A DNA stretch of 39,487 nucleotides from Gluconacetobacter aggeris (GTDB lineage Bacteria > Pseudomonadota > Alphaproteobacteria > Acetobacterales > Acetobacteraceae), in NCBI RefSeq assembly GCF_014174395.1, contig NZ_JABEQD010000021.1, positions 1 through 39,487 of the forward strand, given 5' to 3'. This document shows positions 10,366 to 36,084 of the stretch, in pieces; the stretch's first letter is position 1, and each line of letters starts with the position of its first letter. The notes beneath the pieces are model-generated. The model had not been told where the DNA came from. It worked only from the letters and a program-made list of their open reading frames with translations, and did not search any database. The translations under genes were made by a program, and so were the position numbers.

Positions 10366-10373
10366 GAGCCTTC

Positions 10374-10432: not shown

Positions 10433-10495
10433 ATCGAATAGACGCTTGGCGCGCGCCATCCTACTGTGGCGGATATCCGCATATTGCAGCGGCAT

Positions 10496-11151: not shown

Positions 11152-11292
11152 TGCTTCCTCCGTCACCAATGGTTGCTATCCACGTCAAATTGGACATGGC
11201 ACAGTTTTCCGTCAAGTGAACTCTGCCGTCTCAATTCGGGTGCCCCAAGCGCACCTTCCTATCCGCTTCCATTCTTTCGTATCATCTGGCTC

Positions 11293-12228: not shown

Positions 12229-12321
12229 GGTCACTCCGGACAGCGAAGGCCCAGCATAGACCGGATGCCGGCCGCATCGAAGATGCCGACACCGAAAACC
12301 ACCCTCGGGAGCGGGCGGCAG

Positions 12322-12351
12322 TTGCGGGCGGGTCGGCCCGCACCTTATAAA
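12322..12351 (+). promoter_or_regulatory. Candidate sigma-70 promoter of the nitrilase-family gene
   Basis: TTGCGG (12322-12327) and TATAAA (12346-12351) are separated by 18 bases, giving 3/6 and 5/6 matches to the consensus. Initiation near 12358 would leave a leader of about 55 bases before the GTG start. The -10 element is good and the -35 weak. Confidence 0.4.
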
Positions 12352-12411
12352 AGGCGGCTCGAGACCATGGATCGGCCGGCCGGCCGCGTCCGCTTTCGCA
12401 CGGAGTGTCAG

Positions 12412-13251
12412 GTGCGCACCACTGTCGTCCAGATGGCCCCCGGCGCGTCCCTGCCGGACAATATCGCCCAGGCCAGCGACCTGATCGCGGCCGCCGTCGC
12501 CGCCGACCGGCCCGAGCTGGTGGTGCTGCCGGAAATCTGGAGCTGCCTGGGCGGCGCGGCCGAAACCAAGTTCGCCAATGCCGAGGAACTGCCCGCCCCC
12601 GGCACCACGGCCGGCACCGGCCCGCTCTATCGTTTCCTCTCCGAGACCGCGCGCACGCACGGCATCACCCTGCATGGCGGCTCGATCGGCCAGCGATATG
12701 GCGGCAAGCTGCTGAATACCAGCCTCGTCTTCGGCCCCGACGGGGTGGAACGGGCACGCTACAGCAAGATCCACCTGTTCGACATCACCACCCCCGGCGG
12801 CGAAGGCTATCGCGAAAGCGACACCTACGCCCCGGGCGAGGACGTCGTGACCGTCCCGGTGGGCGCGTTCACCGCCGGGCTGGCCATCTGCTACGACCTG
12901 CGCTTCGCTGAACTGTTCCTGGCCCTGCGCAAGCGCGGCGCGAACGTGATCGTGCTGCCGGCGGCCTTCACCGCCGAGACCGGCGAGGCCCACTGGGCCA
13001 CGCTGCTGCGCGCCCGGGCGATCGAAACCCAGTGCTGGGTCGTGGCCTGCGGCACCACCGGCACCCATATCGATGCGGGGGGACATGCCCGGCGGACCTA
13101 CGGCCATTCCATGATCATCGACCCGTGGGGCACGATCGTCACCCAGGCGTCGAACGGCATCGGCTGGGCCACGGCCACCCTGACCCTCCACCAGGTCGAG
13201 CGTGTCCGTGCCGGCATGCCCGTGCTGGCCCATCGCCGCCTGGGAGCCTGA
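12412..13251 (+). CDS. Carbon-nitrogen hydrolase (nitrilase superfamily) family protein
   Basis: The 279-residue product is a cytoplasmic amidase of the nitrilase superfamily, closest in pattern to the omega-amidase/Nit2 and deaminated-glutathione amidase (Nit1) group. The catalytic triad is complete: E41 in VVLPEIW, K119 in YSKIHLFD and C160 in AICYDLRFAELF. I prefer the GTG at 12412-12414, which has GGAG 6 bases upstream and gives the typical RTTVVQMAPG start. An ATG at 12367 would add 15 residues with no family match. The gene is divergent from the CDF gene. Its stop lies inside the left arm of a 13-bp inverted repeat. The role may be repair of damaged metabolites, but that is inference. 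Confidence 0.9.
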   Translation: MRTTVVQMAPGASLPDNIAQASDLIAAAVAADRPELVVLPEIWSCLGGAAETKFANAEELPAPGTTAGTGPLYRFLSETARTHGITLHGGSIGQRYGGKLLNTSLVFGPDGVERARYSKIHLFDITTPGGEGYRESDTYAPGEDVVTVPVGAFTAGLAICYDLRFAELFLALRKRGANVIVLPAAFTAETGEAHWATLLRARAIETQCWVVACGTTGTHIDAGGHARRTYGHSMIIDPWGTIVTQASNGIGWATATLTLHQVERVRAGMPVLAHRRLGA

Positions 13252-18577: not shown

Positions 18578-18960
18578 CACGCAATTCCCTTCTGTGCCAA
18601 AGATGTTTTCTGAAGGCGGCGCAGAACGGGAATAGTCAGCACCACAAGAACGGCAATCAGCGTCGGTCCCAGCAGGCGCGGCAGAAGCCCCCAGCCGTCA
18701 AACCCGACCTCCCACAAGGCCCACGGCCAGGTCAGCAGCCATGCCAGCAGATACAGAAAGGCCCCGGCAACCGAGCCCATCAGCATGAGAATACCGCCGG
18801 CGATAATGGCAGCGCCCGCCACGACATAGTAAAGCGACCCACCGAGCAGGGCCAGCTCAGCACCCATGATCAACAGGGGAAGCCCAAGAAGAATGAGCAG
18901 TACCGCAACCGCGCACGTCGCCCATTCCGAGGCCCTTCGAGGTCTGTATAAACCCGCCAT
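18577..18960 (-). CDS. sldB: Membrane subunit SldB of PQQ polyol dehydrogenase (copy 1)
   Basis: The 127-residue product is almost wholly hydrophobic, with four or five membrane segments (for example CAVAVLLILLGLPLLIMGAE and TLIAVLVVLTIPVL). Its size and position directly before sldA match Gluconobacter SldB, which anchors or matures the catalytic subunit. The TGATG overlap with sldA implies translational coupling. The start ATG 18958-18960 has GGAG upstream. Another start is unlikely, since the MAGLYRPRRASEWATCAV N terminus is shared with copy 2. Confidence 0.88.
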   Translation of the reverse strand: MAGLYRPRRASEWATCAVAVLLILLGLPLLIMGAELALLGGSLYYVVAGAAIIAGGILMLMGSVAGAFLYLLAWLLTWPWALWEVGFDGWGLLPRLLGPTLIAVLVVLTIPVLRRLQKTSLAQKGIA

Positions 18961-19493: not shown

Positions 19494-21677
19494 TCACTTG
19501 TTGCCAGGCAGGGCGTAAACCACCAGCGCATCACTGACCGGGGTCCTCATGAAATGATGCCCGCCCGCCATGATGGCGACATACTGCCTGCCCTTGTACT
19601 CATACGTCATGGGCGTGGCCTGTCCACCGCCCGGCAGCACGTCGTTCCACAGTTCCTTGCCGCTTTTGGCATCGAACGCATGCAGCATGTTGTCGGTGGT
19701 GGCACCGACAAACACCACGCCGCCGGCCGTCACCACCGGCCCGCCATTATTGGGCGTGCCGATCGTCAGCGGCAGATAGGTGGGAATGCGCCACGGGCCG
19801 TTGGCCCGGGCACTGCCCAGCGGATGCTGCCACAGCACCTTGCGCGTGTGCATGTCGATCGCCGTGATCATGCCATAGGGCGGCTTGCTGCACAGCAAGC
19901 GCGTGTACCGGTTCCAGAACGGCGAAGCCATGATGCCATAGGGCGTGTCGGCCAGGGCACCTTTGCCTTCGGTCCCGCCACCGGCCCTGAAGCTGGGATC
20001 GTCGGCCGGCATCAGGCCATCGGCTTTCCTGCGGGTCAGGATCTGATAGACCGGGGTCACGTTCCAGTTGGCGATCAGCACGCCCCTCCTGGCATCGTAG
20101 GCCATGCTGCCCCAATCGCTGCCACCGTTATAACCGGGGAATTCGATCCACGGCCTGTCGACGCTTGGGGCCGTGAACTCGCCCTCATATTTGGCACGGC
20201 GGAATTGCAGGCGGCAGAAGAGCTGGTCGATGGGGGACATGCCCCACATGTCGCTCTCCTTCAGGTCCGGCAGGCCCAGGCGCGGCATGCCGACCGACCA
20301 GGGCTGCGTGGGCGAACGCGGATCGCCCTCCACGTCGGTCTCCACCGGAACCGGACGTTCCTCCACCGGCAGGATCGGCTTGCCGTCGAGACGATCGAGC
20401 ACGAAGGTCTGGCCGCGCTTGGTCGGCACCACCAGGGCCGGCACCGGGCCGTCCCGGCCGGGGAAGTCGATCATGATCGGCTGCGAGCCGACATCGTAAT
20501 CCCAGACATCCTTATGCACGGTCTGGAACACCCAGCGCGGCGAACCGGTCTTCACATCCAGCGCCACGATCGCGGACGAAACCCTGTTCTCCTCCGGCGA
20601 GCGCATGGCAGAGTAATAATTGACGGCCGCATTGCCCATGGGGACGTAGACAAGCCCCAGCCCATCGTCGCCCGTCATGGGAGCCCAGGAATTAGGCGTG
20701 CCGCGGCTGTAATGCTGGCCTTCCGCGGGTTCACCATGATCGCCCGGACGGTTGACGTCCCAGGCCCACAGAAACCACCCCGTTTCGGCATCATAGCCAC
20801 GGATCACGCCCGAGGGCGCCCAGCGGCGCTGGCCGTTCAGCACCTGATGATTCACCACGATCGCGCCGTTCACGATCGGGGGCGGCGCCGTCATGGACAC
20901 GAAGCCCGGAGCCACCTCCCCCATGCCCTTCATCAGGCTGACCTGTCCGTGATCGCCGAAGCCTTCGCACAACTTGCCGGTATCGGCATCGACCTCGATC
21001 AGACGCATGTCCAGCGTGCCTTCGAGGATTCGGTTATGGCACAACTGCCCCGTCGGCACAGTCGACGCGGTATAATACACAACCCCCTTGCAGGCCGCCG
21101 CATAGGGAATACTGGCATATTTCACGCCGGCATTATGCCGCCAGACCTCCTTTCCGGTTTCCGGGTCCAGCTTTACAATGTCATTCATGGCCGTACACAT
21201 ATACAGCCCGTCGCCCACCTTGATGGGGGTGGTCTCGGCGGCCCATTTGTTCACCTGACCCGGCGCCGGCTTGCTGCCGGTATGATAGATGAATGCGCGT
21301 GCGAGCTGCCCGACATTCCGGGGCGTGATCTGCTCCAGCGGGGAAAAGCGCGTGGCGCCGGTGTCCCGCCCGTAGGCAGGCCAGTCATCATGCGCCGGAT
21401 GGCTGCCGATCTGCCCGACGGCAGGCGTCGCCTCACCGGCCCCCCCCCGCGGCTCACCGGGAATATTCGCGGCATTGACCCCGGGCGCCTGCGGCACAAA
21501 GGACGACGGAGCCGCTAATCCCTTACCTTCTTTTTGTTCGGATGCATCCGCCTCACTCAAGCGGGGCGGGGCCTCCCTGTACGCGCTTTGGGCCCGAGCC
21601 GGTACCATGCCTGCCGCTGCGGAAAGAAGCATGAATCCGTACAATGCCGTGGCAGCAGCGGGACTGAGCGTCGCCAT
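19494..21677 (-). CDS. sldA: PQQ-dependent polyol dehydrogenase, large subunit SldA (copy 2)
   Basis: The 727-residue product is a tandem paralogue of copy 1, with the same signal peptide type, linker and propeller and most residues identical. Differences cluster in the linker after the signal peptide (EADASEQKEGKG here) and in the loop near NVTPVYQILTRRKADGLMP, where this copy is shorter by three residues. The pattern suggests recent duplication with drift in exposed loops, and possibly a change in substrate range or expression. ATG 21675-21677 overlaps the sldB stop as TGATG. A hairpin and GC-rich repeat follow the gene. Confidence 0.9.
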   Translation of the reverse strand: MATLSPAAATALYGFMLLSAAAGMVPARAQSAYREAPPRLSEADASEQKEGKGLAAPSSFVPQAPGVNAANIPGEPRGGAGEATPAVGQIGSHPAHDDWPAYGRDTGATRFSPLEQITPRNVGQLARAFIYHTGSKPAPGQVNKWAAETTPIKVGDGLYMCTAMNDIVKLDPETGKEVWRHNAGVKYASIPYAAACKGVVYYTASTVPTGQLCHNRILEGTLDMRLIEVDADTGKLCEGFGDHGQVSLMKGMGEVAPGFVSMTAPPPIVNGAIVVNHQVLNGQRRWAPSGVIRGYDAETGWFLWAWDVNRPGDHGEPAEGQHYSRGTPNSWAPMTGDDGLGLVYVPMGNAAVNYYSAMRSPEENRVSSAIVALDVKTGSPRWVFQTVHKDVWDYDVGSQPIMIDFPGRDGPVPALVVPTKRGQTFVLDRLDGKPILPVEERPVPVETDVEGDPRSPTQPWSVGMPRLGLPDLKESDMWGMSPIDQLFCRLQFRRAKYEGEFTAPSVDRPWIEFPGYNGGSDWGSMAYDARRGVLIANWNVTPVYQILTRRKADGLMPADDPSFRAGGGTEGKGALADTPYGIMASPFWNRYTRLLCSKPPYGMITAIDMHTRKVLWQHPLGSARANGPWRIPTYLPLTIGTPNNGGPVVTAGGVVFVGATTDNMLHAFDAKSGKELWNDVLPGGGQATPMTYEYKGRQYVAIMAGGHHFMRTPVSDALVVYALPGNK

Positions 21678-22060
21678 CACGCGATGTCCTTCTCTGCCAT
21701 GGCTATTTTCTGAAGGTGGCGCAGAACCGGAATGGTCAGCACCACAAGAACGGCAATCAGCGTCGGTCCCAGCAGGCGCGGCAGAAGCGCCCAGCCATCA
21801 AACCCGACCTCCCACAAGGCCCAGGGCCAGGTCAGCAGCCACGCCAGCAGATACAGCAGGGCCCCGGCAACCGAGCCTCTCAGCATGAGGATGCCACCTG
21901 CAACAATGGCTATTCCTGCCAGGATATAGTAAAGCGACCCACCAAGCAGGGCCAGCTCGGTCCCCATGATCACCAGGGGAAGTCCAAGAACAATGAGCAG
22001 TACCGCAACCGCGCACGTTGCCCATTCCGAGGCCCTTCGGGGCCTGAATAAACCTGCCAT
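21677..22060 (-). CDS. sldB: Membrane subunit SldB of PQQ polyol dehydrogenase (copy 2)
   Basis: The 127-residue product differs from copy 1 at only about 18 positions and has the same four or five membrane segments. ATG 22058-22060 starts the shared MAGLFRPRRASEWATCAV N terminus and has GGAG nine bases upstream. The frame is open to 22159, but that part overlaps the leader hairpin and is not shared with copy 1. The translational overlap with sldA copy 2 is the same TGATG. Confidence 0.88.
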   Translation of the reverse strand: MAGLFRPRRASEWATCAVAVLLIVLGLPLVIMGTELALLGGSLYYILAGIAIVAGGILMLRGSVAGALLYLLAWLLTWPWALWEVGFDGWALLPRLLGPTLIAVLVVLTIPVLRHLQKIAMAEKDIA

Positions 22061-22069
22061 CCGATCATG

Positions 22070-22122
22070 CTCCAGAGGAAACACCACCCCCAACATTATG
22101 TGGTGCATCAGGTTCTCTGGAG
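22070..22122 (-). promoter_or_regulatory. Leader hairpin of sldB copy 2, sequestering the ribosome binding site
   Basis: CTCCAGAG (22070-22077) pairs with CTCTGGAG (22115-22122), and inside it CACCAC (22082-22087) pairs with GTGGTG (22100-22105). In RNA the 3' arm contains the GGAG ribosome binding site of sldB, so the fold could control translation. Copy 1 has a different sequence that makes a similar fold. Confidence 0.5.
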
Positions 22123-22175
22123 AGCGACTCATCGTAATGAGTTCTTCAAGACTCAGCACGCTCTAACACGCTCAT

Positions 22176-24084: not shown

Positions 24085-24298
24085 CCATGGCCCCATAGAG
24101 CCTCTTCGATCGACACCACCGGGCGGAAGCTCTCGAAGTTCCGTCTGCGCCAGCAGATGGAATGTTGCTATAGGTCGTCGAACGCTGTTTCCCCTGGCTC
24201 GGCCGCTTCCGTCGCCTTGCCTTCACACCATCACATGCTCCCTCACCCGCATTACGGCACACACATCGTGATCTTGAAAGCTGCTCCTAATAGCTGAT
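24085..24298 (+). mobile_element. C-terminal remnant of an IS5-type transposase
   Basis: One plus-strand frame (24177-24293) reads VVERCFPWLGRFRRLA, the hallmark of IS5/IS427-type DDE transposases just after the catalytic glutamate (in VER). A stop codon directly precedes it and the following residues lose similarity, so the gene is dead. No terminal inverted repeats were found. It forms the left edge of the low-GC operon region. Confidence 0.6.
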
Positions 24299-25657
24299 CA
24301 GTCGCATGAAGCCGTAATCCATGTGGATCTGCTGATGGCAGTGAAACAGAGACAGGCCAGGATTGTCTGCGTGCAGGTCAACGTCCAGTGAACCATAGAG
24401 GGGCAACACGACCGTGTCCTTGATCACACCGCTGACGGGACGGCCTGAAATGGCGGTGATTTCGAAACTGTGCCGATGCAGATGGACAGGATGATCCTCG
24501 CGGCTGGCATTGAAGAAGCGGAACCGATAGCGGCGTCCTCTGACCAGGCGCATGATCGGGGCGTCTTCGAAGACCTGGCTGTTGATGCGCCATTCATCCA
24601 TGCCTTCCTTTTTCAGGAAACGCTTCGAAATGATCATGGGAATGACTTCGTCGATTTCGGGTTGCGTCCCCACGCCAGGTTCGGCGAACAGACGGTAATC
24701 CCAGTCATGGCGTGTCGGAGGAATCCAGCGGGCCGGCCCGGTACGCCCTGCATATTCGATGGCCAGAGCCAGTCCTGATGCCCGTTCGGTATCATTGGTA
24801 GCCCCGAGCATCCACACGCCGGGATTGTTCATTTCGACAATCGCATCAACGCGTTCAGCGACGCCGAGACGGATCACATCGACGCTGGCCTGCGTGGGAA
24901 CGGGATTACCATCCAGGGCGATGATGCGGAACCGGTGACCCGGAAAGGCAATGGCCGTATTTTGCGTCGCGCTGGCATTGACGAAGCGGAACCTGATCCG
25001 CTCGCCCATACGGACACGCAGGGGTTCGGCCGCGCTGAAGAGGCGGCCGTTGAAAGTGGCGTATCGATAGCAGACCATCTGGTCCGAAACCGGTGCCCCC
25101 ATATCGCACAAGGCCCCGTTCCAGTGATGGACGGCCAGAAAGACCTCACGATCATAGGATGCAGGGAAGCGTCCATCGTCGATATCAATGAACCCGAACT
25201 GCCCGGAATATCCCCCGGCATTCAGATCCTGTCCGGCCATGACATGTGTATGGTACCAGCGGGTGCCCGAAGGACCCGGCATGAAGTCATAGACCCCAGT
25301 CTGACCCGGCGGGATCATGGGGGACCCCTCTTCCATCGCACCGTCAACGGGGCCGGGAATGTGCAGGCCGTGCCAATGTACCAGTTCAGCCTTCGCGCTG
25401 GTATTGGTGACATGGACCACCGCCGGTCGTGTCGGACTGAATTTCAGGAGTGGTCCGGGAACAGTGCCATTATACGTTGTGGTCGGTATGATAATACCCC
25501 TGCCCAGTTCCACATTGCTCTGTTCGATTATCAGGCGGATCGGATCATCCGGATAAAGCAGGCTTGGTCTGGACGCAGCATGTAAGCGGGCTGGCAAGGC
25601 CGCGGCCGTCAGGGCTGCTGCCAGGGCCTGGCGCCGGGTAAGGAGCAGGGGCCTCAT
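24287..25657 (-). CDS. Tat-exported multicopper oxidase
   Basis: The 456-residue product is a periplasmic multicopper oxidase. A twin-arginine signal is at the start (LLLTRRQALAAALTAAALPA). The four copper-ligand blocks are present: HWHGLH (94-99), WYHTHV (from 135), HPVHLHRHSFE (near 398) and HCHQQIHMDYGFM close to the C terminus. The last gives a type 1 copper site with Cys, two His and probably Met. It has three cupredoxin domains and is short for a laccase. No Met-rich loop, as in copper-detoxifying CueO, is seen. Its ATG overlaps the stop of the flavoprotein gene by 4 bases, so the two are coupled. The substrate could be phenolic or a metal ion; sequence does not say. Confidence 0.93.
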   Translation of the reverse strand: MRPLLLTRRQALAAALTAAALPARLHAASRPSLLYPDDPIRLIIEQSNVELGRGIIIPTTTYNGTVPGPLLKFSPTRPAVVHVTNTSAKAELVHWHGLHIPGPVDGAMEEGSPMIPPGQTGVYDFMPGPSGTRWYHTHVMAGQDLNAGGYSGQFGFIDIDDGRFPASYDREVFLAVHHWNGALCDMGAPVSDQMVCYRYATFNGRLFSAAEPLRVRMGERIRFRFVNASATQNTAIAFPGHRFRIIALDGNPVPTQASVDVIRLGVAERVDAIVEMNNPGVWMLGATNDTERASGLALAIEYAGRTGPARWIPPTRHDWDYRLFAEPGVGTQPEIDEVIPMIISKRFLKKEGMDEWRINSQVFEDAPIMRLVRGRRYRFRFFNASREDHPVHLHRHSFEITAISGRPVSGVIKDTVVLPLYGSLDVDLHADNPGLSLFHCHQQIHMDYGFMRLISY

Positions 25658-27552
25658 GGCATCGTGCCTTTGGCTTCCTCGATTTCGTTGATGGCACGCC
25701 AGGCCATGTCGATGGCCAGGGCGGTGGAATCCGTGCCGCCGGAATCCGTATTGGCGATGGTGATCCGCCCAAACTTGCGGCGTGCACGCAAGTGCGGCGG
25801 CTCGCTACCGTTTCTCAGGAAGTCATCAAAAAGTGACGAGTACCAGTAGGAATATCCATGTCCCCAGCGATTGACGGTAATGCCGAGAATGTCATGTGCC
25901 GCATCGAATCCGTAGGGACCAAGGGCTGCATTGAATTGCATGCGCAATTCGCGCTCATAGGTCTCAAAACTGGTTTCATACATGTCGATGCGACCCGCAC
26001 GGAACTGATCCTTGATCGGGAGTCCCGGTGCGCCGTAACCGCGAAGCAAGGAGACGTGGGCTGGCTGGTCGGGCGACGCTGAATGCTGATACCCACCGAC
26101 GGAAACCGGTGGTTCCAGAATGATCGAGGCGTAATACGACCCCGGTGCATTCATCAGGCAGGCCCCGGCCTTCTGAAAGGCTTTCCAGTTTCGCAACCAG
26201 ACATTGACCCAGAGATTGGGCGTGTGGACGTTGTAGTGCAATGCATCGCGCTGTTCCGGCGGCATGTCGGGACAGAGATATGGGATAACATGAAACCAGC
26301 AGGCGAGGACACAGGATCGCGCCCTGACCGAGAACAAGTCACCATCACGAATATAGCTAACAGTAACGCCGTCTTCCTGATTTCTGACATTGATGGCTGT
26401 CGAATTCAGGCGTATGCGGACGTTGTTCCGTTCATGGTCCAGTAAGTCATAATTCACCCTGCGCACCAATGCATCTGATAGCCCGTCGCATTCCAGCGCA
26501 CCGGGGATCAGATCCCGTACGATCATGCGCGGGATCGTTGCGTTCCCTTCCGGGAAATGGTACTCGGCGCCGCCATGTCCATGCGGTCGGGCTTCCGGCA
26601 GCCCAAGACCATCAAAACCGGGAAAGCTAAAACGTTGATGAGCGGCCAGTGCAGTGGTCGCATCCAGTCCACGGCCACTGCCAAAACTGCGGTCGCGCAG
26701 ATAGGTGCAGACCATTGGGTCACATCCGACGACATCCAGAAGATAGTCACGATAGCTCATCAGAGCCAGTTTTTTCAGTTTTTCGTCCGGAGACAGGCCC
26801 GGCAGATAGTCTGTCCTGTCGTGATAAAGACGAAACAGGTCACGTTTCGCGCGTTCCGGCAACGGGGCATCGCGCATGAACCGCTCCCAGCGCGCCGCGG
26901 AGTCCGGGGGGGTTGTCGGGTCATACAGAAAGGTGAAATCGGTCCAGGGGGCAGGATCTTTCAACAGGACATCCTGGCCGAATGTCTGGCGGTCGAAAAA
27001 AACCGCCTGCCCCATGCCCATCTGTTCGTAAAAGCGACGACTGACTGTGGTTTTGGCCAGTTTTTCGACATCTATGCCGCATACATCGAAAATCAGGTTC
27101 TGGGCTTCTGTCTGTGGTGAATAAAGATTGAAAGTCCCACCATTGGCGATACGGGTATCGCCATTGTGTGTGAACTCGTTCCGTTTGGCATGACCGCCGA
27201 AATCGTCATGATTGTCCAGGACGAGGATCCTGGCGTCCTTTCCATATTTCCGTCGATAAAACCAGGCTGCGGAAAGACCACTGATCCCGCCGCCGACGAC
27301 AATCAGGTCATAGGTCTGGTCCACCTGCTGGGCCTGCGGCAGATTGTCCGTCAGATGCCCGTTGCGCAGGGCATGTCCCGGGCAATAGGCCCGGGTATAA
27401 CCGCTGCCCCGCATCCCGGTCAGGGACGGGGGATAGTGGGAATCACGTTCGGTGCGTCCGTCGGAATAATCCGCACGAGGAATGTCGCAGGCCATGCCCA
27501 GAGCCCGGTCCATGGCGGCGGAGCGTGCCCCGCGCTTTGTATCGATGGTCAC
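25654..27552 (-). CDS. FAD-dependent oxidoreductase, spermidine dehydrogenase-like
   Basis: The product of about 632 residues is a flavoprotein of the amine-oxidase fold. The dinucleotide site is YDLIVVGGGISGLSAAWFY near 80-98, followed by ILVLDNHDDFGGHAKRNEF. The C-terminal flavin-binding end is IANTDSGGTDSTALAIDMAW. These blocks and the YPPSLTGMRGS stretch are typical of spermidine dehydrogenase (SpdH)-like proteins. In that family a twin-arginine region follows LGMDRPI; here the N terminus reads LGMACDIPRADYSDG, without RR or a hydrophobic core. I chose GTG 27550-27552, with AAGGG upstream; TTG 27558 and ATG 27513 are alternatives. The receptor gene ends 13 bases before it. The substrate need not be a polyamine. 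Confidence 0.85.
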   Translation of the reverse strand: MTIDTKRGARSAAMDRALGMACDIPRADYSDGRTERDSHYPPSLTGMRGSGYTRAYCPGHALRNGHLTDNLPQAQQVDQTYDLIVVGGGISGLSAAWFYRRKYGKDARILVLDNHDDFGGHAKRNEFTHNGDTRIANGGTFNLYSPQTEAQNLIFDVCGIDVEKLAKTTVSRRFYEQMGMGQAVFFDRQTFGQDVLLKDPAPWTDFTFLYDPTTPPDSAARWERFMRDAPLPERAKRDLFRLYHDRTDYLPGLSPDEKLKKLALMSYRDYLLDVVGCDPMVCTYLRDRSFGSGRGLDATTALAAHQRFSFPGFDGLGLPEARPHGHGGAEYHFPEGNATIPRMIVRDLIPGALECDGLSDALVRRVNYDLLDHERNNVRIRLNSTAINVRNQEDGVTVSYIRDGDLFSVRARSCVLACWFHVIPYLCPDMPPEQRDALHYNVHTPNLWVNVWLRNWKAFQKAGACLMNAPGSYYASIILEPPVSVGGYQHSASPDQPAHVSLLRGYGAPGLPIKDQFRAGRIDMYETSFETYERELRMQFNAALGPYGFDAAHDILGITVNRWGHGYSYWYSSLFDDFLRNGSEPPHLRARRKFGRITIANTDSGGTDSTALAIDMAWRAINEIEEAKGTMP

Positions 27553-27565
27553 TAACAATCAACCC

Positions 27566-29932
27566 TTACAGGGAGTAATCCAGAGACAGATAGTAATATC
27601 CACCGTTGAAGCCAAGCTGCTGAGCGCTGGAATCATAGGGCACGACACCGACATAGCTGGTGTTGAGCGGAATACGTGATGGATATTCGTTGAACAGGTT
27701 GTTGGCCCCCAATGCCACATGCAGGCGTTCTGTGGCCTGATACCCGACAAGGACGTTGGTCTGGAATTTGGGCTTGCTGTACATCTGGTAGAAGATCTGG
27801 TTCGACCAGGCATTCGGCCCCGTCACATACTGCAACTGGTTGATCGTGTGTCCCCAGCGCATTTCATGGATCGACACATCCCATTTTCCCTTATGCCATG
27901 ATCCGCCGAAGATCAGCTTGTTCCGTGGGAATGCAGTCGTCAGGTACCCGATACCTTGTGCACTGAGCAAGGGGTTGCCGTTCGAGTCCAGATAGTCGCG
28001 CAGAACCTTGGTCTCGTTCAGATTGAGAGAAACATCCCAGTTCACGCGACCATAACGCCCGAAATCGGTCCTATATCCGGCGGTGACGTTGACACCCCGT
28101 GTCCGTGTATCCGCCCCGTTCGAAAAATACTGAACCGACACACTGTCTGGCGTGACAGTCGAATCCACCTGATAGCCACCGGCTTCCAGTGCATCAATCG
28201 CACGCTGGCCGTTATAGACGCCACCCTCGACAATGCGGTGCCGGACAGTGATCTGGTACGCGTCAACGGTGATATTCAGATTACGTAAAGGGTTCAACAG
28301 AAAACCTGCGCTGAAGTTCATCGAGCGTTCAGGACGCAGTGGCTTCGATCCCAATGCACGGGCCGTTGCGGAGTTAACAGCAACCACACCATTGGCACCG
28401 GTCGGCGTGGTGCTGAGACTGGTATAATATTGTTCCGCCAAGGTCGGCGCGCGGAAGCCATTGCTGATACCGCCACGCAGCGCGAGATATTTATTGACAT
28501 CATAGCGCATCGAGACCTTTCCGGTCTCGGTATCACCGGAGTCGGTATAATGCTCGAAGCGGCCGGCAAAATCGACCTGCCAGTTCTTCAGCAGGCGGGT
28601 CGAAAGGCCAACGTAGCCTGCAGTCACATCGCGGCTGGCCCGGGTATAGCTAAGTTGGTTCAGGCCGCTTTGTCCCTGAGGTCCTGAACCGTAATAAGAT
28701 GCAGGGTCTCCTGGATTGACGTTATAGGCGTCGTTCCTGTACTGCGCGCCAATCGAGAAATTGAGAGGACCAGCAAGTAGCGGAACGTCGAATGCCTTAC
28801 GGATGCCAAAATCAGTCGTCCATTGGCGGTTCGAGAAGGACATAACGTGGAAATGTGTCGGTGTATGGCCGGTATCGGCATACAGCATCGTGTTGACAGA
28901 GTCATTCAGGTCAAAATGGGAATGATCTTCACCGTAACTGGTGCTGAGATCCCAGTTCCAGCCGTCGAACAGTTCTCCCCTAAATCCGACAGCGACGTTG
29001 AAATCATCTTCATCGAGTGAACTGACGGGGCTGAAGCCGAACGGATAGATTTCAGGCAGGATCGCAGGCGTGCGATAATTCTGGTAAGACCATGAAGCCC
29101 GGTGAGCGTAGCTGGAAAACGAATAGAATTCGACCTTGTTGGTAATATGATAACCCATATTGTACCCTAGGGACACCTTTGTTTCCTGCGGGTTTCCGAA
29201 ATACTGGTTGACCTTCTTGTCGACGCGCGTGTCGATGTCGCCGCGATTGGTATGGTCCTGATGCTTGAATTCACCATCCAGGTGAAAATAGCCCCGATCT
29301 GTCAGGCTTGTGCCCCAACTAACGGTATTATCCGTCGTGAAGCCGTCCCCGGCATAATATCCACCATTGACGGAATGCAGATCCAGGCCGCTGGGTTTGT
29401 TCTTGAGGATGATGTTGACCACGCCGGCGATGGCATCCGAACCATAAAGGGCCGCGGCACCGTCCTGAAGTACCTCGATATGATCGATCGACGACATCGG
29501 AAACATGCCCAGATCGACCGGTGTGGTGCCGTTTTCCGGGCTGCCGGTATCGTCCGTCATGATGGACGTCGAGTGCCGACGCTTGCCATTGACCAGGATC
29601 AGCGTCTGGTCGGATGTCAATCCGCGCAGACTGATCGTGGACGTCATGTTGGCATTACCTGACGTCACGCCGGGACGGGTGATGGATGGATCAAGCTGGA
29701 CCAGGGCGTCACGCAGATCGGGCTGACCCGTCGCTTTCAACTGTTGTGCGCTGACAACCGTGATGGGGCTGATACTTTTTCTGACCGTCTGATGCGGATC
29801 GCGCGTGCCGGTGACGATGACCTGCTCGTCGGCAGGACCATCAGCAGCTGCAAGGGCAGGTATGGAAAGCACGCACGTTCCAGCCGCCAGGGAGGCGGCA
29901 GAGGCGAGAAGAAATCCACGCATCTTCGGCAT
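27566..29932 (-). CDS. TonB-dependent outer-membrane receptor
   Basis: The 788-residue product is a ligand-gated outer-membrane porin energised by TonB. It has a signal peptide (about 1-28, ending LAAADG) and a TonB box in EQVIVTGT. The plug domain contains VSAQQLKATGQPDLRDALVQ and IEVLQDGAAALYGSDAIAGV. A 22-strand barrel begins near 190 and ends with an aromatic YYLSLDYSL terminus. There is no N-terminal signalling domain. The ATG at 29930-29932 is preferred; ATG 29923 three codons later is possible. It is the first gene of the operon with the flavoprotein and the oxidase, so the imported compound is probably their substrate. The ligand is unknown. Confidence 0.95.
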   Translation of the reverse strand: MPKMRGFLLASAASLAAGTCVLSIPALAAADGPADEQVIVTGTRDPHQTVRKSISPITVVSAQQLKATGQPDLRDALVQLDPSITRPGVTSGNANMTSTISLRGLTSDQTLILVNGKRRHSTSIMTDDTGSPENGTTPVDLGMFPMSSIDHIEVLQDGAAALYGSDAIAGVVNIILKNKPSGLDLHSVNGGYYAGDGFTTDNTVSWGTSLTDRGYFHLDGEFKHQDHTNRGDIDTRVDKKVNQYFGNPQETKVSLGYNMGYHITNKVEFYSFSSYAHRASWSYQNYRTPAILPEIYPFGFSPVSSLDEDDFNVAVGFRGELFDGWNWDLSTSYGEDHSHFDLNDSVNTMLYADTGHTPTHFHVMSFSNRQWTTDFGIRKAFDVPLLAGPLNFSIGAQYRNDAYNVNPGDPASYYGSGPQGQSGLNQLSYTRASRDVTAGYVGLSTRLLKNWQVDFAGRFEHYTDSGDTETGKVSMRYDVNKYLALRGGISNGFRAPTLAEQYYTSLSTTPTGANGVVAVNSATARALGSKPLRPERSMNFSAGFLLNPLRNLNITVDAYQITVRHRIVEGGVYNGQRAIDALEAGGYQVDSTVTPDSVSVQYFSNGADTRTRGVNVTAGYRTDFGRYGRVNWDVSLNLNETKVLRDYLDSNGNPLLSAQGIGYLTTAFPRNKLIFGGSWHKGKWDVSIHEMRWGHTINQLQYVTGPNAWSNQIFYQMYSKPKFQTNVLVGYQATERLHVALGANNLFNEYPSRIPLNTSYVGVVPYDSSAQQLGFNGGYYYLSLDYSL

Positions 29933-29994
29933 TGTCTCGTTTCGCGATGGTTACGGGGCAGACTTGGGAGGGCCTTATCGTATCGACGTCGGAA

Positions 29995-30023
29995 TTGATG
30001 TGATAACGTTCTCACATTGTCAA
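29995..30023 (-). promoter_or_regulatory. Promoter of the receptor-flavoprotein-oxidase operon
   Basis: On the minus strand a perfect TTGACA (30018-30023) is followed after 17 bases by CATCAA (29995-30000), a weak -10 (3/6). The spacer is almost entirely the LacI-type palindrome. Transcription would start near 29988, about 55 bases upstream of the receptor start. Confidence 0.5.
29998..30017. promoter_or_regulatory. LacI-family operator
   Basis: ATGTGATAACGTTCTCACAT is a near-perfect palindrome: only the pair at the sixth base of each ATGTGA-type arm breaks symmetry. The central CG and the AACGTT core are typical of LacI-family operators. It sits between the -35 and -10 elements of the operon promoter, where a bound repressor would block RNA polymerase. 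The divergent LacI gene is the obvious binder. Confidence 0.7.
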
Positions 30024-30186
30024 CTGCCATGAATCGAATCCGATGTCGAATCGTTCTCCTGGCATGTCACTGGCGGGCTGAGGCATTCGTCATGCACCTG
30101 TTTTGCGCTATGCTCTGTTCCCGGGGAGTAATCAGGCCGCAAACCTGTCCAACCGACAGGAAGGCGGCTCAGGAGGGGACAAATTG

Positions 30187-31278
30187 GTGCCGGCGAACAA
30201 GGCAAGACACGCGACGATCGTGGATGTGGCGAAGGCTGCGAATGTCAGCGTGGCAACAGCCGGCAGGGCGCTGGGCCAGTACGGATATGTGCGACCGGAG
30301 ACCAGGAAAGCTGTGCAGGAAGCCGCATCAGCTCTGCATTACAAGAAAAATATGGCCGCACAATCTCTTATTTCTGGAAGCGCAAAAACATTTGGAATGA
30401 TCGTATCAGATATAAGCTCTGAATTTTATTCAAATATAATAAAATCGACGGTAAACTACTGCAGAGAGCGTGGTTATTGTATTCTGATCTACGATACGCA
30501 TGAATCTGCAAAGATCGAGCGTGAGGCATTGGCCATCTTCCAGAAACACAGGGTCGATGGCATCATCGTCTCACCGGCAGATTCACGGAATGTCGACCAT
30601 CTACGGGAATTCATCGACGATGGTGGGCGCATTGTACAGATCGATCGCTGTATCCCGGAGCTGAATACAGATACGGTCATGCTGGACAACAGGGAGGCAG
30701 CCTTTCAGGGTGTAAGCCGATTGATTGCCGCAGGACATCGAAAAATTGCATATATTGGAGAGTTACATGAAATAAGACCAGACCTATTGCAGTCTATCGT
30801 CAATAAATATGGTCGCCCATCCCGCGCGCGAAGAGCATTTGCCCCAAGTTACCAACGATTCATGGGGTATCTGGATGCGCATGCCGTGGCCGGACTTCCG
30901 GCCTGTCTGGATATGATTGGCCGGACTGGACACTATAGCAGCGAGAGCGCGCAACGGGCCGCCGGGCGTGTCCTGATGCATGAGCCCACTGCGATGCTGG
31001 CCGCTGATGGTATGATGGCCATTGGTGCATTTCGGGCGTTGAAAACGTCTGGAATGCGCATTCCAGAAGATGTTTCATTCGTCAGTTTCGATGACCTGGA
31101 TTGGTATCAGCTTGTTGATCCACCCGTGACAGCAATTGCCCAGCCATGTGCGCAGATTGGCGAAGAAGCGGCCCGAATTCTGATCCAGAGGACTGAGGAA
31201 AAAATCGGCCCTGTGCATTATGAGCATGTACGCCTGCCTGGCCATATCCTCATGAGGGGCTCGGTCCGTGCTCTCTGA
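30187..31278 (+). CDS. LacI-family transcriptional regulator
   Basis: The product of about 363 residues has an N-terminal helix-turn-helix (TIVDVAKAANVSVATAGRAL), then a hinge helix (NMAAQSLISGSA), then a periplasmic-binding-like effector domain with GMIVSDISSEFYSNIIKS and RVDGIIVSPAD. The recognition helix has TAGRALGQYGYV in place of the usual TVSRVLNGxxxV, which marks a sub-branch. The ribosome binding site AGGAGG fits either TTG 30184 or GTG 30187; I list the GTG. The gene diverges from the receptor operon, with a palindromic operator between them, so it probably represses that operon until a ligand binds. Such ligands are usually sugars or nucleosides. Confidence 0.93.
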   Translation: MPANKARHATIVDVAKAANVSVATAGRALGQYGYVRPETRKAVQEAASALHYKKNMAAQSLISGSAKTFGMIVSDISSEFYSNIIKSTVNYCRERGYCILIYDTHESAKIEREALAIFQKHRVDGIIVSPADSRNVDHLREFIDDGGRIVQIDRCIPELNTDTVMLDNREAAFQGVSRLIAAGHRKIAYIGELHEIRPDLLQSIVNKYGRPSRARRAFAPSYQRFMGYLDAHAVAGLPACLDMIGRTGHYSSESAQRAAGRVLMHEPTAMLAADGMMAIGAFRALKTSGMRIPEDVSFVSFDDLDWYQLVDPPVTAIAQPCAQIGEEAARILIQRTEEKIGPVHYEHVRLPGHILMRGSVRAL

Positions 31279-32039: not shown

Positions 32040-32762
32040 TTATGCGGCGCGCAGCAATGCCGGCCCGTGACGGCGCAGCCAGACTTCGGCCATGTGGCGG
32101 TGCGGCGTCAGGCTGGCCACCAGCACCCAGAAATCGGGGCCATGATTCATGTGCCGCAGATGGGCCAGTTCATGGGCGACCACGTAATGCTGCACGTCGA
32201 CGGGCGCCATCACCAGCCGCCAGTTCAGCATCACCGTGCCATCCGCGCTGCAACTGCCCCAGCGGCTGCTGGTATCCTTGATCACCAGCCGGCGGGGCCG
32301 CAGGCCGGAGGCCCCCGCGATCTGCGCCAGCCGCGCGCCGAGCCGATGCCCGGCTTCCTGCCGCAGGAACGTCGTCAGGCGGCGGCGCAGGAACGGCGCC
32401 TCGCCGCTCACCTTCACCACATCGTCCTCGATCCACACGCCCCGCCGCCCATCGGGGCAATGGACGATTCCATGCGGGCACCCATCCAGCACCACCTGCC
32501 CCCCGTCATGCCACGGCGCCGCCGCCGGCAGATGGTCCAGCCGCGACAGCGCCCAGACGGCATGGCTGCGCAGCAGCGCCAGCCCCGCCTCGCGCTCCGC
32601 CCGCGGCGGCAGGGTAATCACGATTTCGGCCTCACGCGCGTCGATCCGCAGCGACAGCCGCCGCGCCCGGCTCGACCGACGCCAGCGGACCGGCACGTCG
32701 CGCCCGGCCAACCGGACGGTCTCGGCCTCCGCCGGCATCGGACCGGAGAGGCCGGCGCTCAT
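32040..32762 (-). CDS. YgjP-like M48-family metallopeptidase
   Basis: The 240-residue product is a small cytoplasmic zinc-peptidase-like protein of the YgjP (DUF45) family. The zinc site is HELAH at 197-201, with the third ligand in the NHGPDFW stretch (H207). The family block [20 protein letters not shown] precedes it. The N-terminal part has the usual [16 protein letters not shown] strand. The start overlaps the stop of the upstream YcgN-family gene by ATGA, so translation is coupled. The in-frame ATG at M9 is an alternative. The substrate is unknown. Confidence 0.88.
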
Positions 32763-33241
32763 TCCCCGGAGGGCGTCCGTGGCCGGCGCGGACGCGGCAT
32801 CACACCGGGCCAGTCGACGATATGATGCTCCAGCGGACCGGCACGACGCTCGCTGATCGCCCGCCCCCGTACCGAAATCCCGGCCTCATGCACGGTATCG
32901 GGCGAGCCGGACACCAGCGGATGCCACCATGGCAGCTTCCGCCCCTCGGCCAGCAGCCGATAGGCGCAGGAAGGCGGCAGCCAGTCGATCTCCGCCAGGG
33001 CTTCGGGCGTCAGTTGCACGCAGTCGGGCACCTTGCGCCGGCGGCACGCATAGTCCGAGCAGCGGCAGCTTTCCAGGTCCAGCAGCCGGCAGGCAACCTC
33101 GGTAAACAGGATCTGCTCGGTCACGTCCTCGCGCAGCTTGTGCAGGCAGCAGCGTCCGCAGCCGTCGCACAGCGATTCCCATTCCTCGGTCGTCATTTCG
33201 TCCAGGCGGCGGACCTGCCAGAACGGCTTTGTATCGGTCAT
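32759..33241 (-). CDS. YcgN family cysteine cluster protein
   Basis: The 160-residue product belongs to the YcgN (UPF0260) family of unknown function. Its cysteine set begins [12 protein letters not shown] and continues with [11 protein letters not shown] and PDCVQL, and is thought to bind a metal. The typical [20 protein letters not shown] and HPLVSG blocks follow. The length is normal. It is the first gene of a pair with the downstream metallopeptidase, with a 4-base overlap. Confidence 0.92.
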
Positions 33242-33289
33242 GGCGACCGTCTTACTGAATCCGGCCGGCCGAGAGAAGAAAAACGCCGC

Positions 33290-33736
33290 CTACCCGTCCA
33301 GAACGCCCATCATCACGGCACCCGCCACCGCCAGCACCGCCGCGCCCAGCGCCGCCGGCCCCAGCAGCGGCAGCCACAGGCCGCGCAGCCGGATCACCCG
33401 CCCGGCCCCCAGGCCCGCCGCCGTCCGCGCCAGTCCGGGCGGCAGGCGGTCGAGCGCGCGCAGCAACGGCAGCAGCACCAGCGGCACCAGGCAGACAGCC
33501 TGCGTCACGACCGGCTCCGCACCGCCATCCCGCCAGGGCCCGGATAGCGCAACGGCCCCCATCCATCCGGGAATCGCCAGCGCCAGGGCACAGACCTGGG
33601 CGGCCGACAGCACGCGCCGCCCCCGCGGCCCCGCCCGCAGCAGCAGGCCGAGCCCGCACGCGGCCAGGGCCGCCGTCCCTTCCACCAGCAGGCCGACGAC
33701 CAGTGCCGGCGACGAGAAAGCCGGCAGCCCGGTCAT
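33290..33736 (-). CDS. Half-length ABC-type permease protein
   Basis: The 148-residue product has about four membrane segments (around 9-33, 42-64, 76-95 and 118-146). The stretch ARTAAGLGAGRVIRLRGLW followed by LPLLGPA is the EAA loop pattern by which binding-protein-dependent permeases contact their ATPase. Normal permeases of this type have 260 or more residues, and the helices after the EAA loop are missing. Its start overlaps the upstream binding-protein stop by ATGA, so it was designed to be translated with it. It may be a decayed permease or a reduced, re-purposed membrane protein. Confidence 0.65.
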   Translation of the reverse strand: MTGLPAFSSPALVVGLLVEGTAALAACGLGLLLRAGPRGRRVLSAAQVCALALAIPGWMGAVALSGPWRDGGAEPVVTQAVCLVPLVLLPLLRALDRLPPGLARTAAGLGAGRVIRLRGLWLPLLGPAALGAAVLAVAGAVMMGVLDG

Positions 33737-34767
33737 GGCACGGCCAGCCAGTCCGCGAAGCGCCGGGACAGGTCAGGCAGATGCTCCTGCCAGAAGGCGG
33801 CATCCATCGGCAGCGGCTGCACCGACTGCGCGTCCGGACGCGCATGGTAGAGCGACGCGAACCGCGCCACCTGCTCGGGCTGGGCCATGAAATGCAGCAG
33901 GCTGCGTGCCCGGTCGCGCGTCGCGTGATCCAGATCGGGCGCAACACCCCAGGACAGGCCGTCATCCAGGCTCTGTTCCCACTGCAGCCCGACATCGCGC
34001 TGGCCGGACCCGGCCGCCGCCACCTCGCCCCCCACCGCACTGGTCATCAGCACGCTGCCATTGCCGATGATGCGTGCGGATTCCGCCGGGCTGGTCCACC
34101 ACTCGATATAGGGACGCAACTGGCTGAGCTTGCGGAACGCGCGCGCCACCCCGTCGGGCGTCGCCAGCACGGCATAGACATCGGCCGGTGCAACGCCATC
34201 GGCCATCAAGGCGATCTCAAGCGTCGAGCGCGGGTCCTTGCGCAGGCCGCGCTTGCCGGGATAGCGGACGACATTCCAGAAATCGCTCCAGTGCGGGGCC
34301 ACCGGAATGCGGCCGCGATCCCACGCCAGGGCGATCCCCTCGCGCAGGGCCGGCACGCCACACGCATCCGCGCTGCCCGGCGCGCCGCCCAGCCGCAGCA
34401 GGACTCCCTGCATGCAGGCGGCGCGGGCGGTGCTGTCTTCCATCAGCGCCACCGTCCAGGCACGGCCGCCAGAGCCCTGGCGGGCGGCAGGCTGCGGATC
34501 GCCATCCCATACATAGCGCAGGATGCCGACCTTCATCTGGGCCGCGAAGGGGCGAAAGAACGCCTTGTCCTGGGCCGCGCCCAGGGCTCCGCCCAGGCTG
34601 TTCACCACCAGCGCATGCGCGCGCCAGCCCGTCCGGGCATTCCCGCCGGTCGGCACGATCGCCAGCAGCAGCAGCCCGATCAGAAGACGACGGAGCGATC
34701 GGAAAGTGCGGAGCGGGCCGGACAGGGGAATGGACTTTCGCAGGGGGCGGGGCAGGAAGGCCGGCAC
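33733..34767 (-). CDS. ABC-type periplasmic substrate-binding protein
   Basis: The product of about 344 residues resembles the PotD/AfuA-type and YnjB-type binding proteins of spermidine, iron or thiamine transporters. A signal peptide is visible (SLRRLLIGLLLLAIVPTGGNA). The mature part contains LVVNSLGGALGAAQDKAFFRP and a late DVGLQWEQSLDDGLSWGVAP. I chose GTG 34765-34767, which lies one base past the ATPase stop codon. ATG 34806 would overlap the ATPase by 38 bases. The stop overlaps the permease start by ATGA. The ligand is unknown. Confidence 0.75.
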   Translation of the reverse strand: MPAFLPRPLRKSIPLSGPLRTFRSLRRLLIGLLLLAIVPTGGNARTGWRAHALVVNSLGGALGAAQDKAFFRPFAAQMKVGILRYVWDGDPQPAARQGSGGRAWTVALMEDSTARAACMQGVLLRLGGAPGSADACGVPALREGIALAWDRGRIPVAPHWSDFWNVVRYPGKRGLRKDPRSTLEIALMADGVAPADVYAVLATPDGVARAFRKLSQLRPYIEWWTSPAESARIIGNGSVLMTSAVGGEVAAAGSGQRDVGLQWEQSLDDGLSWGVAPDLDHATRDRARSLLHFMAQPEQVARFASLYHARPDAQSVQPLPMDAAFWQEHLPDLSRRFADWLAVP

Positions 34768-34768
34768 G

Positions 34769-35884
34769 CTAGCCCATTTCCCCCCGGAACGGAAAGGCCA
34801 CGGCATGCGCCGGCGGCCAGGCCAGCCGGGCGGTCCGTCCGGGCACGAGTCCCGTCAGGTTCTGCGCCGGCGGCCGGCGGACCAGGACCTCCTGCCCATC
34901 CTCCAGGCGGAAGCGCAGCCGAATATGGTCGCCCATATGGTGCAGCCCCGCCAGCACCGCCGGCAGCGTGTCCTCGTCCTCATCGTCGGCGGCGGCCCGC
35001 CCGGTCGGAAACAGGGTGGCGATCCGGTCGGGCCGGACGCACAGCGTGCACAGCATGTCCGCGTCCACCCCCTGCCCGGCCATGGCCTCGACCCGCGCGC
35101 CGCTGGCCAGATGGACCGATGCCAGATCGTCCTCCACCCATGCGACGCGACCGGTCAGCGCGTTGGCGTCGCCGAAACGCGTGGCGACCCGGTCGCAGGC
35201 CGGCCGGTCGAACAATTCGGCCGCACTGCCGACCTGCAACAGCGCCCGACCGGACAGCACGCCGATCGCATCCCCCAGCAGCAGCGCATCATCCCGATCC
35301 CCGGTCGCCAGCAGCAGCGTCAGGCCCTGCGCCCGGGCCACGCGGGCCAGCAGGCGGCGCATCGCCAGCCGGTCCTCGCGCTCCAGCCCCGCGAACGGGT
35401 CGTCCAGCAGCAGGACCGACGGCGCGAACACCAGCAGCCGGCCCAGGCGGGCGCGCCACTCATCCTGTGGGGCAAGGGCGTGCGGGCGGCGGGCGGCCTG
35501 TCCATCCAGCCCCAGCAGGGCCAGCACCGTGTCCATCCGCGCCGCGACCGCCGGCCGTGCCAGGCCGCGCGCCTCCAGCGGAAAGGCCAGGTTCCGCCGC
35601 ACCGTCAGGTGCGCGAACAGCGGATCGCGCGCGCTGAACAGCCCGAGGCCCCGGCTCCCCGCCGGTCGCGCGGCCACGTCCCGGCCATCGAGCAGGATCT
35701 GGCCGGCCACGCACGGCAGATGGCCGGCCAGCGTGTCCAGCAGGCGGGAGAGGTCCGCCGCACGGTCCCCAAGCAATGCCAGGCACCCGCCGGGTGCGAT
35801 CGAAAAGGACAGCGTGGGCGTGGACGGTTCCACCGGCGCACACACAAATCCGCGAACGTCAAGACGTGGAGAGAGGGGAGCCAT
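34769..35884 (-). CDS. PotA-like ABC ATPase with degenerate catalytic motifs
   Basis: The 371-residue product aligns along its length with PotA/FbpC-type ABC ATPases (LSFSIAPGG start, ILLDGRDVAARP, a C-terminal OB-like domain from about 240). Yet the ATPase motifs have changed. Walker A is LLGDRAADLSR (38-48) with no lysine. The Q-loop glutamine is S84. The signature is LAPQD (137-141). Walker B is LLLDDP, with the catalytic glutamate replaced by D162. The switch histidine is G195. The frame is intact. ATG 35882-35884 is preferred; TTG 35935 is open upstream. It heads the operon with the binding protein and the half permease. It probably cannot hydrolyse ATP normally. Confidence 0.8.
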   Translation of the reverse strand: MAPLSPRLDVRGFVCAPVEPSTPTLSFSIAPGGCLALLGDRAADLSRLLDTLAGHLPCVAGQILLDGRDVAARPAGSRGLGLFSARDPLFAHLTVRRNLAFPLEARGLARPAVAARMDTVLALLGLDGQAARRPHALAPQDEWRARLGRLLVFAPSVLLLDDPFAGLEREDRLAMRRLLARVARAQGLTLLLATGDRDDALLLGDAIGVLSGRALLQVGSAAELFDRPACDRVATRFGDANALTGRVAWVEDDLASVHLASGARVEAMAGQGVDADMLCTLCVRPDRIATLFPTGRAAADDEDEDTLPAVLAGLHHMGDHIRLRFRLEDGQEVLVRRPPAQNLTGLVPGRTARLAWPPAHAVAFPFRGEMG

Positions 35885-35941
35885 GCGAGAAACGAAACCT
35901 GACAGGACTGATCGAAAGTCGGCCAGTGTAGACAACCCGCA

Positions 35942-36084
35942 TCAAAGATACGACCTTCCTGGGGCGTCAGCCCGTAAAATCGGCCCAATACCGCCGCTGA
36001 CGGGTCGTTGCCAAGGCGCGCGAACTGGCCGATTATCCGCGCAAGACCTGAGCCGCCGGGACCCCAGGCACCCAGGGCGGCCAT
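35942..36084 (-). pseudogene. Fragment resembling a LuxR-type DNA-binding region
   Basis: From an ATG at 36084 the minus strand translates to a segment with IIGQFARLGNDPSAAVLGRF followed by YGLTPQEGRIFDAG. The YGLTPxEGRI pattern resembles the first helix of LuxR-type HTH domains (YGLTPAEARV). No further helix follows and the frame continues into the ATPase gene. It is probably a remnant. The rest of the gap up to the holin-like gene holds one hairpin. Confidence 0.35.

Follow-up and report, generated by a model that had tools for sequence, protein, structure and literature searches.

A flavoprotein without a Tat signal beside a Tat-signalled multicopper oxidase: a proposed two-protein periplasmic oxidase in Gluconacetobacter aggeris

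INTRODUCTION

What does a copper oxidase do for a dehydrogenase that is encoded beside it and has lost its own export signal? We address this question in a stretch of Gluconacetobacter aggeris DNA (contig NZ_JABEQD010000021.1 of assembly GCF_014174395.1), whose whole length of 39,487 nt is called the window. Its minus strand encodes, in this order, a TonB-dependent receptor, an SpdH-like flavoprotein (FLAV) and a multicopper oxidase (MCO), and a LacI-type regulator is encoded divergently. The initial annotation had taken these genes for one operon that captures a compound and oxidizes it with two enzymes in turn. The coordinates and Pfam domains agree with a single predicted operon and a divergent LacI gene, and the idea of an oxidative module that is fed by the receptor and adjoins a LacI-type regulator is supported; the action of two enzymes in turn on one compound has less support. 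We propose instead, with a probability of about one half, that FLAV is exported by way of the MCO's twin-arginine translocation (Tat) signal and that its electrons pass from FAD to heme b, then to type-1 copper and O2, which would make the pair a periplasmic oxidation module. The proposal starts from the gene order, the overlap of the frames, the lost signal, the heme and copper ligands, a palindrome, the recurrence of the pair and the dehydrogenase neighbours of the MCO's clade, all of which are read from sequence. To our knowledge, few bacterial laccase-like oxidases have an identified physiological electron donor.

RESULTS

FLAVs encoded with an MCO lack a Tat signal

We compared 119 FLAVs from samples of the family, the phylum and the Acidobacteria class of genome G804, from MCO-linked loci and from one plasmid. 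The N-terminus of the window's FLAV aligns with the DRxLGM...RRDFLNG start of its relatives but has neither their twin arginine nor their hydrophobic Tat region. This loss, which the initial annotation overlooked, is found exactly where FLAV is co-encoded with an MCO: the hydrophobic region is missing in all ten FLAVs that are co-directional with an adjoining MCO (the window, L063, L065, L066, L067, L088, L089, L100, L122 and L236) and is present in 109/109 others. We measured the signal as the best 11-residue hydropathy after RR, applying the same rule to all 119 rows; the value is at least 1.22 in the 109 and at most 0.89, or RR is absent, in the ten. This rule was chosen after the misplaced rows of an earlier one (12 uncharged residues, cut 0.9) had been seen. 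The earlier rule called 13 rows signal-less, including L090, L225 and L233, which possess RR and a hydrophobic region and which the uniform rule groups with the signal-bearing rows; another rule missed the signals of L073, L078 and L090 owing to the position at which it cut the N-terminus. In form B (L065, L066, L067, L122), RRDFLNG is kept and is followed directly by a stretch that is charged and contains cysteine.

The MCO partners of the ten paired FLAVs all have RR and a hydrophobic stretch, as judged by eye. Each of the ten co-directional pairs thus combines a signal-less passenger with a co-encoded partner carrying a Tat-type signal, the combination by which a Tat hitchhiker is recognized. 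The only divergently encoded FLAV-MCO pair, L090, has kept its FLAV signal. One metagenome-assembled genome holds both states: at L100 an MCO is present and FLAV is signal-less, and at L243 FLAV has its signal and 12 kb are free of an MCO. In a careful tree built from 33 of the 119 rows, the paired state must change four times, with at least three of these changes forced by well-supported branches, and on these 33 rows an approximately unbiased (AU) test rejects a single paired clade (p-AU 1.15e-55). By this reading of the sequences, the FLAV-MCO pairing has arisen at least three times independently.

The count of 10 and 109 leaves out FLAV frames that are too short or do not match the FAD motif pattern, for example L054 (N runs) and L229; the latter has a Tat signal by eye and no MCO match. 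Loci L182-L188 were skipped as duplicates; L183 and L184 are represented by their second readings, L243 and L222, while the second reading of L185, L248, was excluded because of its length. A pair on a Kozakia plasmid (L083) is uncounted, its FLAV crossing the start of the record. The flanks of L168-L181 and L189-L217 span only about 1.5 kb, beyond which a more distant MCO would escape. From the class of G804 we took the best FLAV places and read 40 regions, 38 of them from the class survey or its genomes and 2 separate. The 999-aa FLAV frame of L078 was considered as a gene fusion and rejected, as by eye the portion upstream resembles an overlong frame and not an MCO.

A FLAV without a signal could also be a cytoplasmic enzyme, the MCO being a separate periplasmic one that shares only its regulation. 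This explanation accommodates the absence of an own Tat signal in all ten paired FLAVs, and cytoplasmic heme-b proteins are generally known. However, the loss is confined to FLAVs co-directional with an MCO bearing a Tat-type signal and has occurred at least three times, the three-gene operon of the window contains no inner-membrane importer gene, and the heme ligands are unchanged, which together make a cytoplasmic FLAV unlikely.

The MCO belongs to a clade that adjoins dehydrogenases of three types

A scan of genome contigs with an MCO alignment, built mostly from FLAV-linked MCOs, yielded 376 relatives; the sample used here consists of the best 80 and is limited by the make-up of that alignment. 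FLAV adjoins the MCO in 8 of these best 80, a count outside which two loci from plasmid records stand. Within four genes of the MCO, 29 of the 80 loci hold a member of a protein cluster whose representative is a pyrroloquinoline quinone (PQQ) dehydrogenase with fused cytochrome domains, and 18 hold a member of a cytochrome c cluster; these loci are nearly all from Acidobacteria, and Pfam was run on the cluster representatives only. A tree of 88 MCOs, made from the 80 and 8 more, contains a supported clade of 44 to which the window's MCO belongs. Its members are 30 rows with the label PQQ/cytochrome c, every one of the 11 FLAV rows and 3 of other kinds. A PQQ dehydrogenase gene lies within three genes in 28 of the 30 (on the opposite strand in L159); L118 and L141 have only cytochrome c at that distance. 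One of the 3 of other kinds, L093 (4418-7630), encodes a molybdenum oxidoreductase (Oxidored_molyb, Mo-co_dimer), a cytochrome c and the MCO in one gene row.

In total, a dehydrogenase is found within three genes of 40/44 MCOs in the clade (PQQ 28, FLAV 11, molybdenum 1), and 2 more have cytochrome c only. Outside the clade the figure is 1/44 (L101). The neighbour labels count either strand; the molybdenum case came to light when a single locus was read, and no such reading for other dehydrogenases was made of the rows outside the clade. L109, L115 and L131 have the full gene order ThuA, GFO/IDH/MocA, AP_endonuc_2-type isomerase, MCO, cytochrome c, PQQ dehydrogenase, and other loci have parts of it. 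In these three Acidobacteria loci the row occupies about 3800-13000 and is possibly a periplasmic sugar-oxidation pathway.

These neighbours bear on the action of two enzymes in turn, in which FLAV oxidizes an imported compound and a laccase-like MCO oxidizes the product or a related phenolic. A layout of the co-transcribed type, the signal on the MCO and its laccase-like copper sites with a Phe at the axial position, often a mark of high potential, are all compatible with such a sequence. But the dehydrogenases that adjoin the clade, of the PQQ, molybdenum and FAD/heme types, would be expected to form different products, and the repeated loss of the FLAV signal is left unexplained, so we regard sequential catalysis as doubtful. 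A role for the MCO as electron acceptor fits better, because its clade adjoins three chemically different types of dehydrogenase, mostly with an electron exit through heme or cytochrome c.

Two further sets of MCO relatives have other neighbours. On a Komagataeibacter oboediens plasmid (L084, 4884-9416), a relative with 46% identity lies directly before an ars operon (arsR, arsC, an arsenic transporter and arsH). In 7/80 loci (L104, L123, L130, L134-L136 and L148), which include Bradyrhizobium and other Alphaproteobacteria, the MCO relative has in its vicinity a gene that looks, by eye, like one for a chromate-transporter protein.

FLAV retains the heme ligands of SpdH

The label SpdH-like given initially was right: phmmer matches FLAV to the solved Pseudomonas aeruginosa SpdH with an E-value of 7e-132 over query residues 40-626, nearly the full length. 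In SpdH, electrons travel from FAD to a surface heme b with ligands His54 and His562, according to the available part of PMC12564564. The corresponding pair, His60 and His565 in the window, is kept at the first site in all 119 FLAV rows and at the second in the 118 that reach it, one row ending before that site; all ten MCO-paired FLAVs have both. Because both SpdH heme-b histidines align and are kept, FLAV is very probably a flavocytochrome.

SpdH (PA3713, PDB 7D9F-7D9J) thus shares with FLAV its sequence family over residues 40-626 and both heme ligands; it differs in having its own Tat signal. PA3713 is identified as spdH in the available part of PMC8904051, and its signal stands in a table of the Discussion of PMC6085387, which, from the part available, we take to list signals that work in a Tat reporter assay. 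Since the PA3713 signal is apparently among those that work, the ancestral FLAV was most likely exported. The phylum sample contains FLAV in 15/398 genomes; apart from the window's locus, its 14 FLAV loci showed no MCO in flanks of about 1.5 kb.

The nearly full-length match could also suggest a catabolic operon for spermidine or other polyamines with a true SpdH. We rank this low, as quite improbable, given the LacI-type regulator, the gene row of the relative at L243 (an MFS transporter, an aldo/keto reductase and PfkB, with GH92 upstream) and the breadth of the family (119 rows), in which the substrates of two distant SpdH homologues are unknown to the authors of PMC12564564, as stated in the available part. 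In five loci of Acetobacteraceae (L045, L048, L052, L068 and L069) two diverged FLAV paralogues lie side by side, and the stretch that was read around them contains no MCO match.

Copper sites and affiliation of the MCO

All four copper motifs of the MCO are intact (HWH, HTH, HPVHLH and HCHQQIHMDYGF), and the axial position of the type-1 copper is Phe450. The N-terminus, LTRRQALAAALTAAALPARLHA, fits a Tat-type signal by eye, in agreement with the earlier prediction of a Tat-exported enzyme. Phe at the type-1 axial position often means a high copper potential. With a copper potential taken from general knowledge, transfer from SpdH to a Phe-axial type-1 copper would be downhill, since the electrode onset of SpdH is -0.14 V vs Ag/AgCl (available part of PMC12564564).

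The three cupredoxin domains and the copper motifs are common to CueO, CopA, laccase-type MCOs and the window's MCO. Unlike CueO and CopA, however, the latter scores far below the cut-offs of the corresponding NCBIfam models (CopA 148 of 478.95 bits; CueO 75.8 of 525), contains 15 Met in 456 residues without a Met-rich insert, and belongs to a clade whose members mostly neighbour dehydrogenases. An operon for copper tolerance or for iron or copper acquisition, with a CueO/CopA-like MCO and a metallophore receptor, might be read from the receptor, whose best solved relative is a siderophore receptor, and from the MCO relative beside the Komagataeibacter ars operon, but these model scores, the Met content and a LacI-type rather than a metal regulator make it very improbable.

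Occurrence and mobility of the pair

In a sample of 397 genomes of the family, FLAV occurs in 32 (E up to 1e-30), MCO in 21 (E up to 1e-40) and both in 11; the two genes are adjacent in 5/397 (G000, G001, G003, G010 and G101), the window's own genome counted. Among 349 genomes of the Acidobacteria class of G804, FLAV occurs in 71, MCO in 73 (E up to 1e-90) and both in 8 by the places listed, with adjacency in 2/349, G850 and G804, the latter being the known centre of the sample. The co-occurrence check that the initial annotation invited thus went half against it: adjacency is rare yet patterned. The pair recurs in Acetobacteraceae and Acidobacteria, at three or more independent places on the FLAV tree.

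LacI, receptor, FLAV and MCO are also found together on pKB16680_3, a mobilizable 36-kb plasmid of Kozakia baliensis (MOBQ) with genes of IS5 and IS701, where the cassette occupies 32182-36022 and 1-3135 of L083. By its sequence distribution, the FLAV-MCO cassette is rare, mobile and repeatedly assembled. The receptor of pKB16680_3 is annotated in pieces; a near copy in L088 is one frame.

Operon layout and a putative operator

Pfam assigns Plug and TonB barrel domains to the receptor, NAD_binding_8/DAO to FLAV, three Cu-oxidase domains to the MCO and LacI with Peripla_BP_3 to the regulator (Table 1). The FLAV and MCO frames overlap by 4 bases (25654-25657). Receptor and FLAV are separated by 13 bases if FLAV starts at GTG 27552 and by 7 from the mechanical open reading frame start, TTG 27558; both distances given initially, 13 and 4, hold with the GTG start.

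The LacI gene likely starts at TTG 30184, after GGAGGGG, rather than at the mechanical start 30103. Its product combines a helix-turn-helix with a ligand domain, and an operator-like palindrome, TGTGATAACGTTCTCACA, sits at the divergent promoter between the receptor and LacI genes, which on sequence are the features of a local repressor. The expected count of the palindrome in shuffles of the window is 0.00. A relaxed pattern allowing one mismatch matches 29999-30016 and nowhere else in the genome; because of this single match, LacI most likely controls this promoter alone. The earlier suggestion of LacI control is thereby strengthened, and the module is probably repressed by LacI. Among four other loci of the same form, the palindrome is identical in L087 and changed by one base in L088 and L083. 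Promoter and terminator scans of the window yielded no more than chance.

Table 1. Features of the receptor-FLAV-MCO locus, in window coordinates
Feature	Position	Strand	Basis
MCO, laccase-like three-domain, 456 aa	24287..25657	-	copper motifs, Pfam
MCO N-terminal Tat-type signal MRPLLLTRRQALAAALTAAALPARLHA	25577..25657	-	judged by eye
FLAV, SpdH-like FAD protein, 632 aa from GTG	25654..27552	-	Pfam, phmmer
FLAV His565 codon, aligned with SpdH heme-b ligand His562	25858..25860	-	alignment
FLAV His60 codon, aligned with SpdH heme-b ligand His54	27373..27375	-	alignment
FLAV residues 15-32 DRALGMACDIPRADYSDG, no twin Arg or hydrophobic Tat region	27457..27510	-	alignment with relatives
TonB-dependent receptor, 788 aa	27566..29932	-	Pfam
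LacI-type operator-like palindrome TGTGATAACGTTCTCACA	29999..30016		8/9 half-site positions symmetric; single genome copy
TTGACA, possible -35 of the operon promoter, adjoins palindrome	30018..30023	-	sequence; promoter scan did not select it
LacI-family regulator, divergent, TTG start proposed	30184..31278	+	Pfam, GGAGGGG ahead of start

DISCUSSION

In the proposed mechanism, the TonB receptor would carry a substrate, most likely a carbohydrate, through the outer membrane, and FLAV, a dehydrogenase with FAD and heme b whose fold family is that of SpdH, would oxidize it in the periplasm. Having no signal of its own, FLAV would leave the cytoplasm in the folded state as a passenger of the MCO, to which it would be bound and whose frame, overlapping that of FLAV, encodes a Tat-type signal. 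Its electrons may then pass from FAD through the surface heme b to type-1 copper and the trinuclear copper site, reducing O2 to water. If they reach the type-1 copper, the MCO would be a dedicated soluble electron sink and not a second substrate enzyme. Travelling with the MCO encoded beside it seems to be the reason why FLAV no longer has an export signal, and carriage on the MCO together with electron hand-over is the simplest account, because three classes of dehydrogenase share one MCO clade and the same-strand FLAVs are signal-less. It is the formation of a complex, passenger export, heme-to-copper transfer, the substrate class and repression by LacI that we infer.

Several observations weigh against this proposal. 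The sign test on three usable independent pairs, all of them agreeing, gives p 0.25 under the earlier Tat rule, and p 0.5 when the divergent L090, which breaks the pattern, is counted as paired; with only three to four independent events it cannot reach significance. The signal loss fits a FLAV relocated to the cytoplasm equally well. Translational coupling cannot hold for all pairs, since a spacing of 28-36 bases separates FLAV and MCO in L089, L100 and L236, and in L236 the order is reversed, with the MCO first. The receptor joins the pair in 4/5 family genomes, G003 (L065) having none next to FLAV; L089 and L090 have another type of outer-membrane barrel nearby, and the receptor adjoins FLAV in only part of the loci. 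In the Acidobacteria locus L089 the palindrome is absent, and its LacI is only 25% identical to the window's.

The substrate is the weakest link. The LacI-type regulator and the neighbours at L243 suggest a carbohydrate: there, a TonB receptor 31% identical to the window's, a signal-bearing FLAV and the MFS, aldo/keto reductase and PfkB genes stand in a row downstream of GH92, and a GH35 gene lies near L122. A further point on the opposing side is that 40 Acidobacteria FLAV loci show no recurring sugar gene set or shared pathway beside FLAV, so the substrate class rests on few loci. It may be a sugar, a polyol or another reduced compound.

Known systems resemble parts of the proposed pair. The FAD-dependent glucose, fructose and gluconate dehydrogenase complexes have a small subunit of the Tat 'hitchhiker' kind, to which the available part of PMC6719666 gives a helper role in secretion. 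As far as that part of the source goes, they are alike in that a signal-less FAD subunit is exported by a Tat-signalled partner and electrons exit through heme or a cluster; they differ in that their flavin subunit is of the GMC type and the carrier is a small subunit, whereas here the proposed carrier is itself a redox enzyme. FLAV has no GMC match in Pfam, and the operon contains no small-subunit gene. Coupling to laccase is possible for cellobiose dehydrogenase and other flavocytochromes, and we know of no encoded, co-exported MCO partner for any of these. Their path from FAD through heme b to an external acceptor is like the one proposed for FLAV; cellobiose dehydrogenase is named in the available part of PMC12564564.

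More tentatively than the mechanism itself, we suggest that the pair may be a two-protein periplasmic oxidase of a categorically new kind and one case of a wider, as yet undescribed principle, in which the MCO clade acts as a soluble, O2-reducing terminal module. It would serve PQQ, molybdenum and FAD/heme dehydrogenases, form water and not peroxide, and bypass the membrane chain. A literature search that covered few subscription journals found no publication joining spermidine dehydrogenase with a multicopper oxidase, and none on an MCO as electron acceptor of a PQQ-dependent dehydrogenase in Acidobacteria; broader searches, judged by titles and the opening lines of abstracts, also turned up no SpdH/MCO or PQQ/MCO module. 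If the proposal is true, a set of 'laccases' in Acidobacteria and acetic acid bacteria gains a testable role, receiving electrons from co-encoded periplasmic dehydrogenases, and Tat passenger export gains a case in which one redox enzyme carries another. An oxidase that contains flavin, heme and copper, needs no further component and produces water rather than peroxide would also be of use for sensors and biofuel cells.

Elsewhere in the window, a PQQ dehydrogenase of the glucose/quinate/shikimate family is split on the minus strand (19494-22159) into a catalytic gene (19494-21680) and a membrane gene (21677-22159), which overlap by 4 bases. A second PQQ dehydrogenase, of 732 aa, is encoded at 16382-18580.

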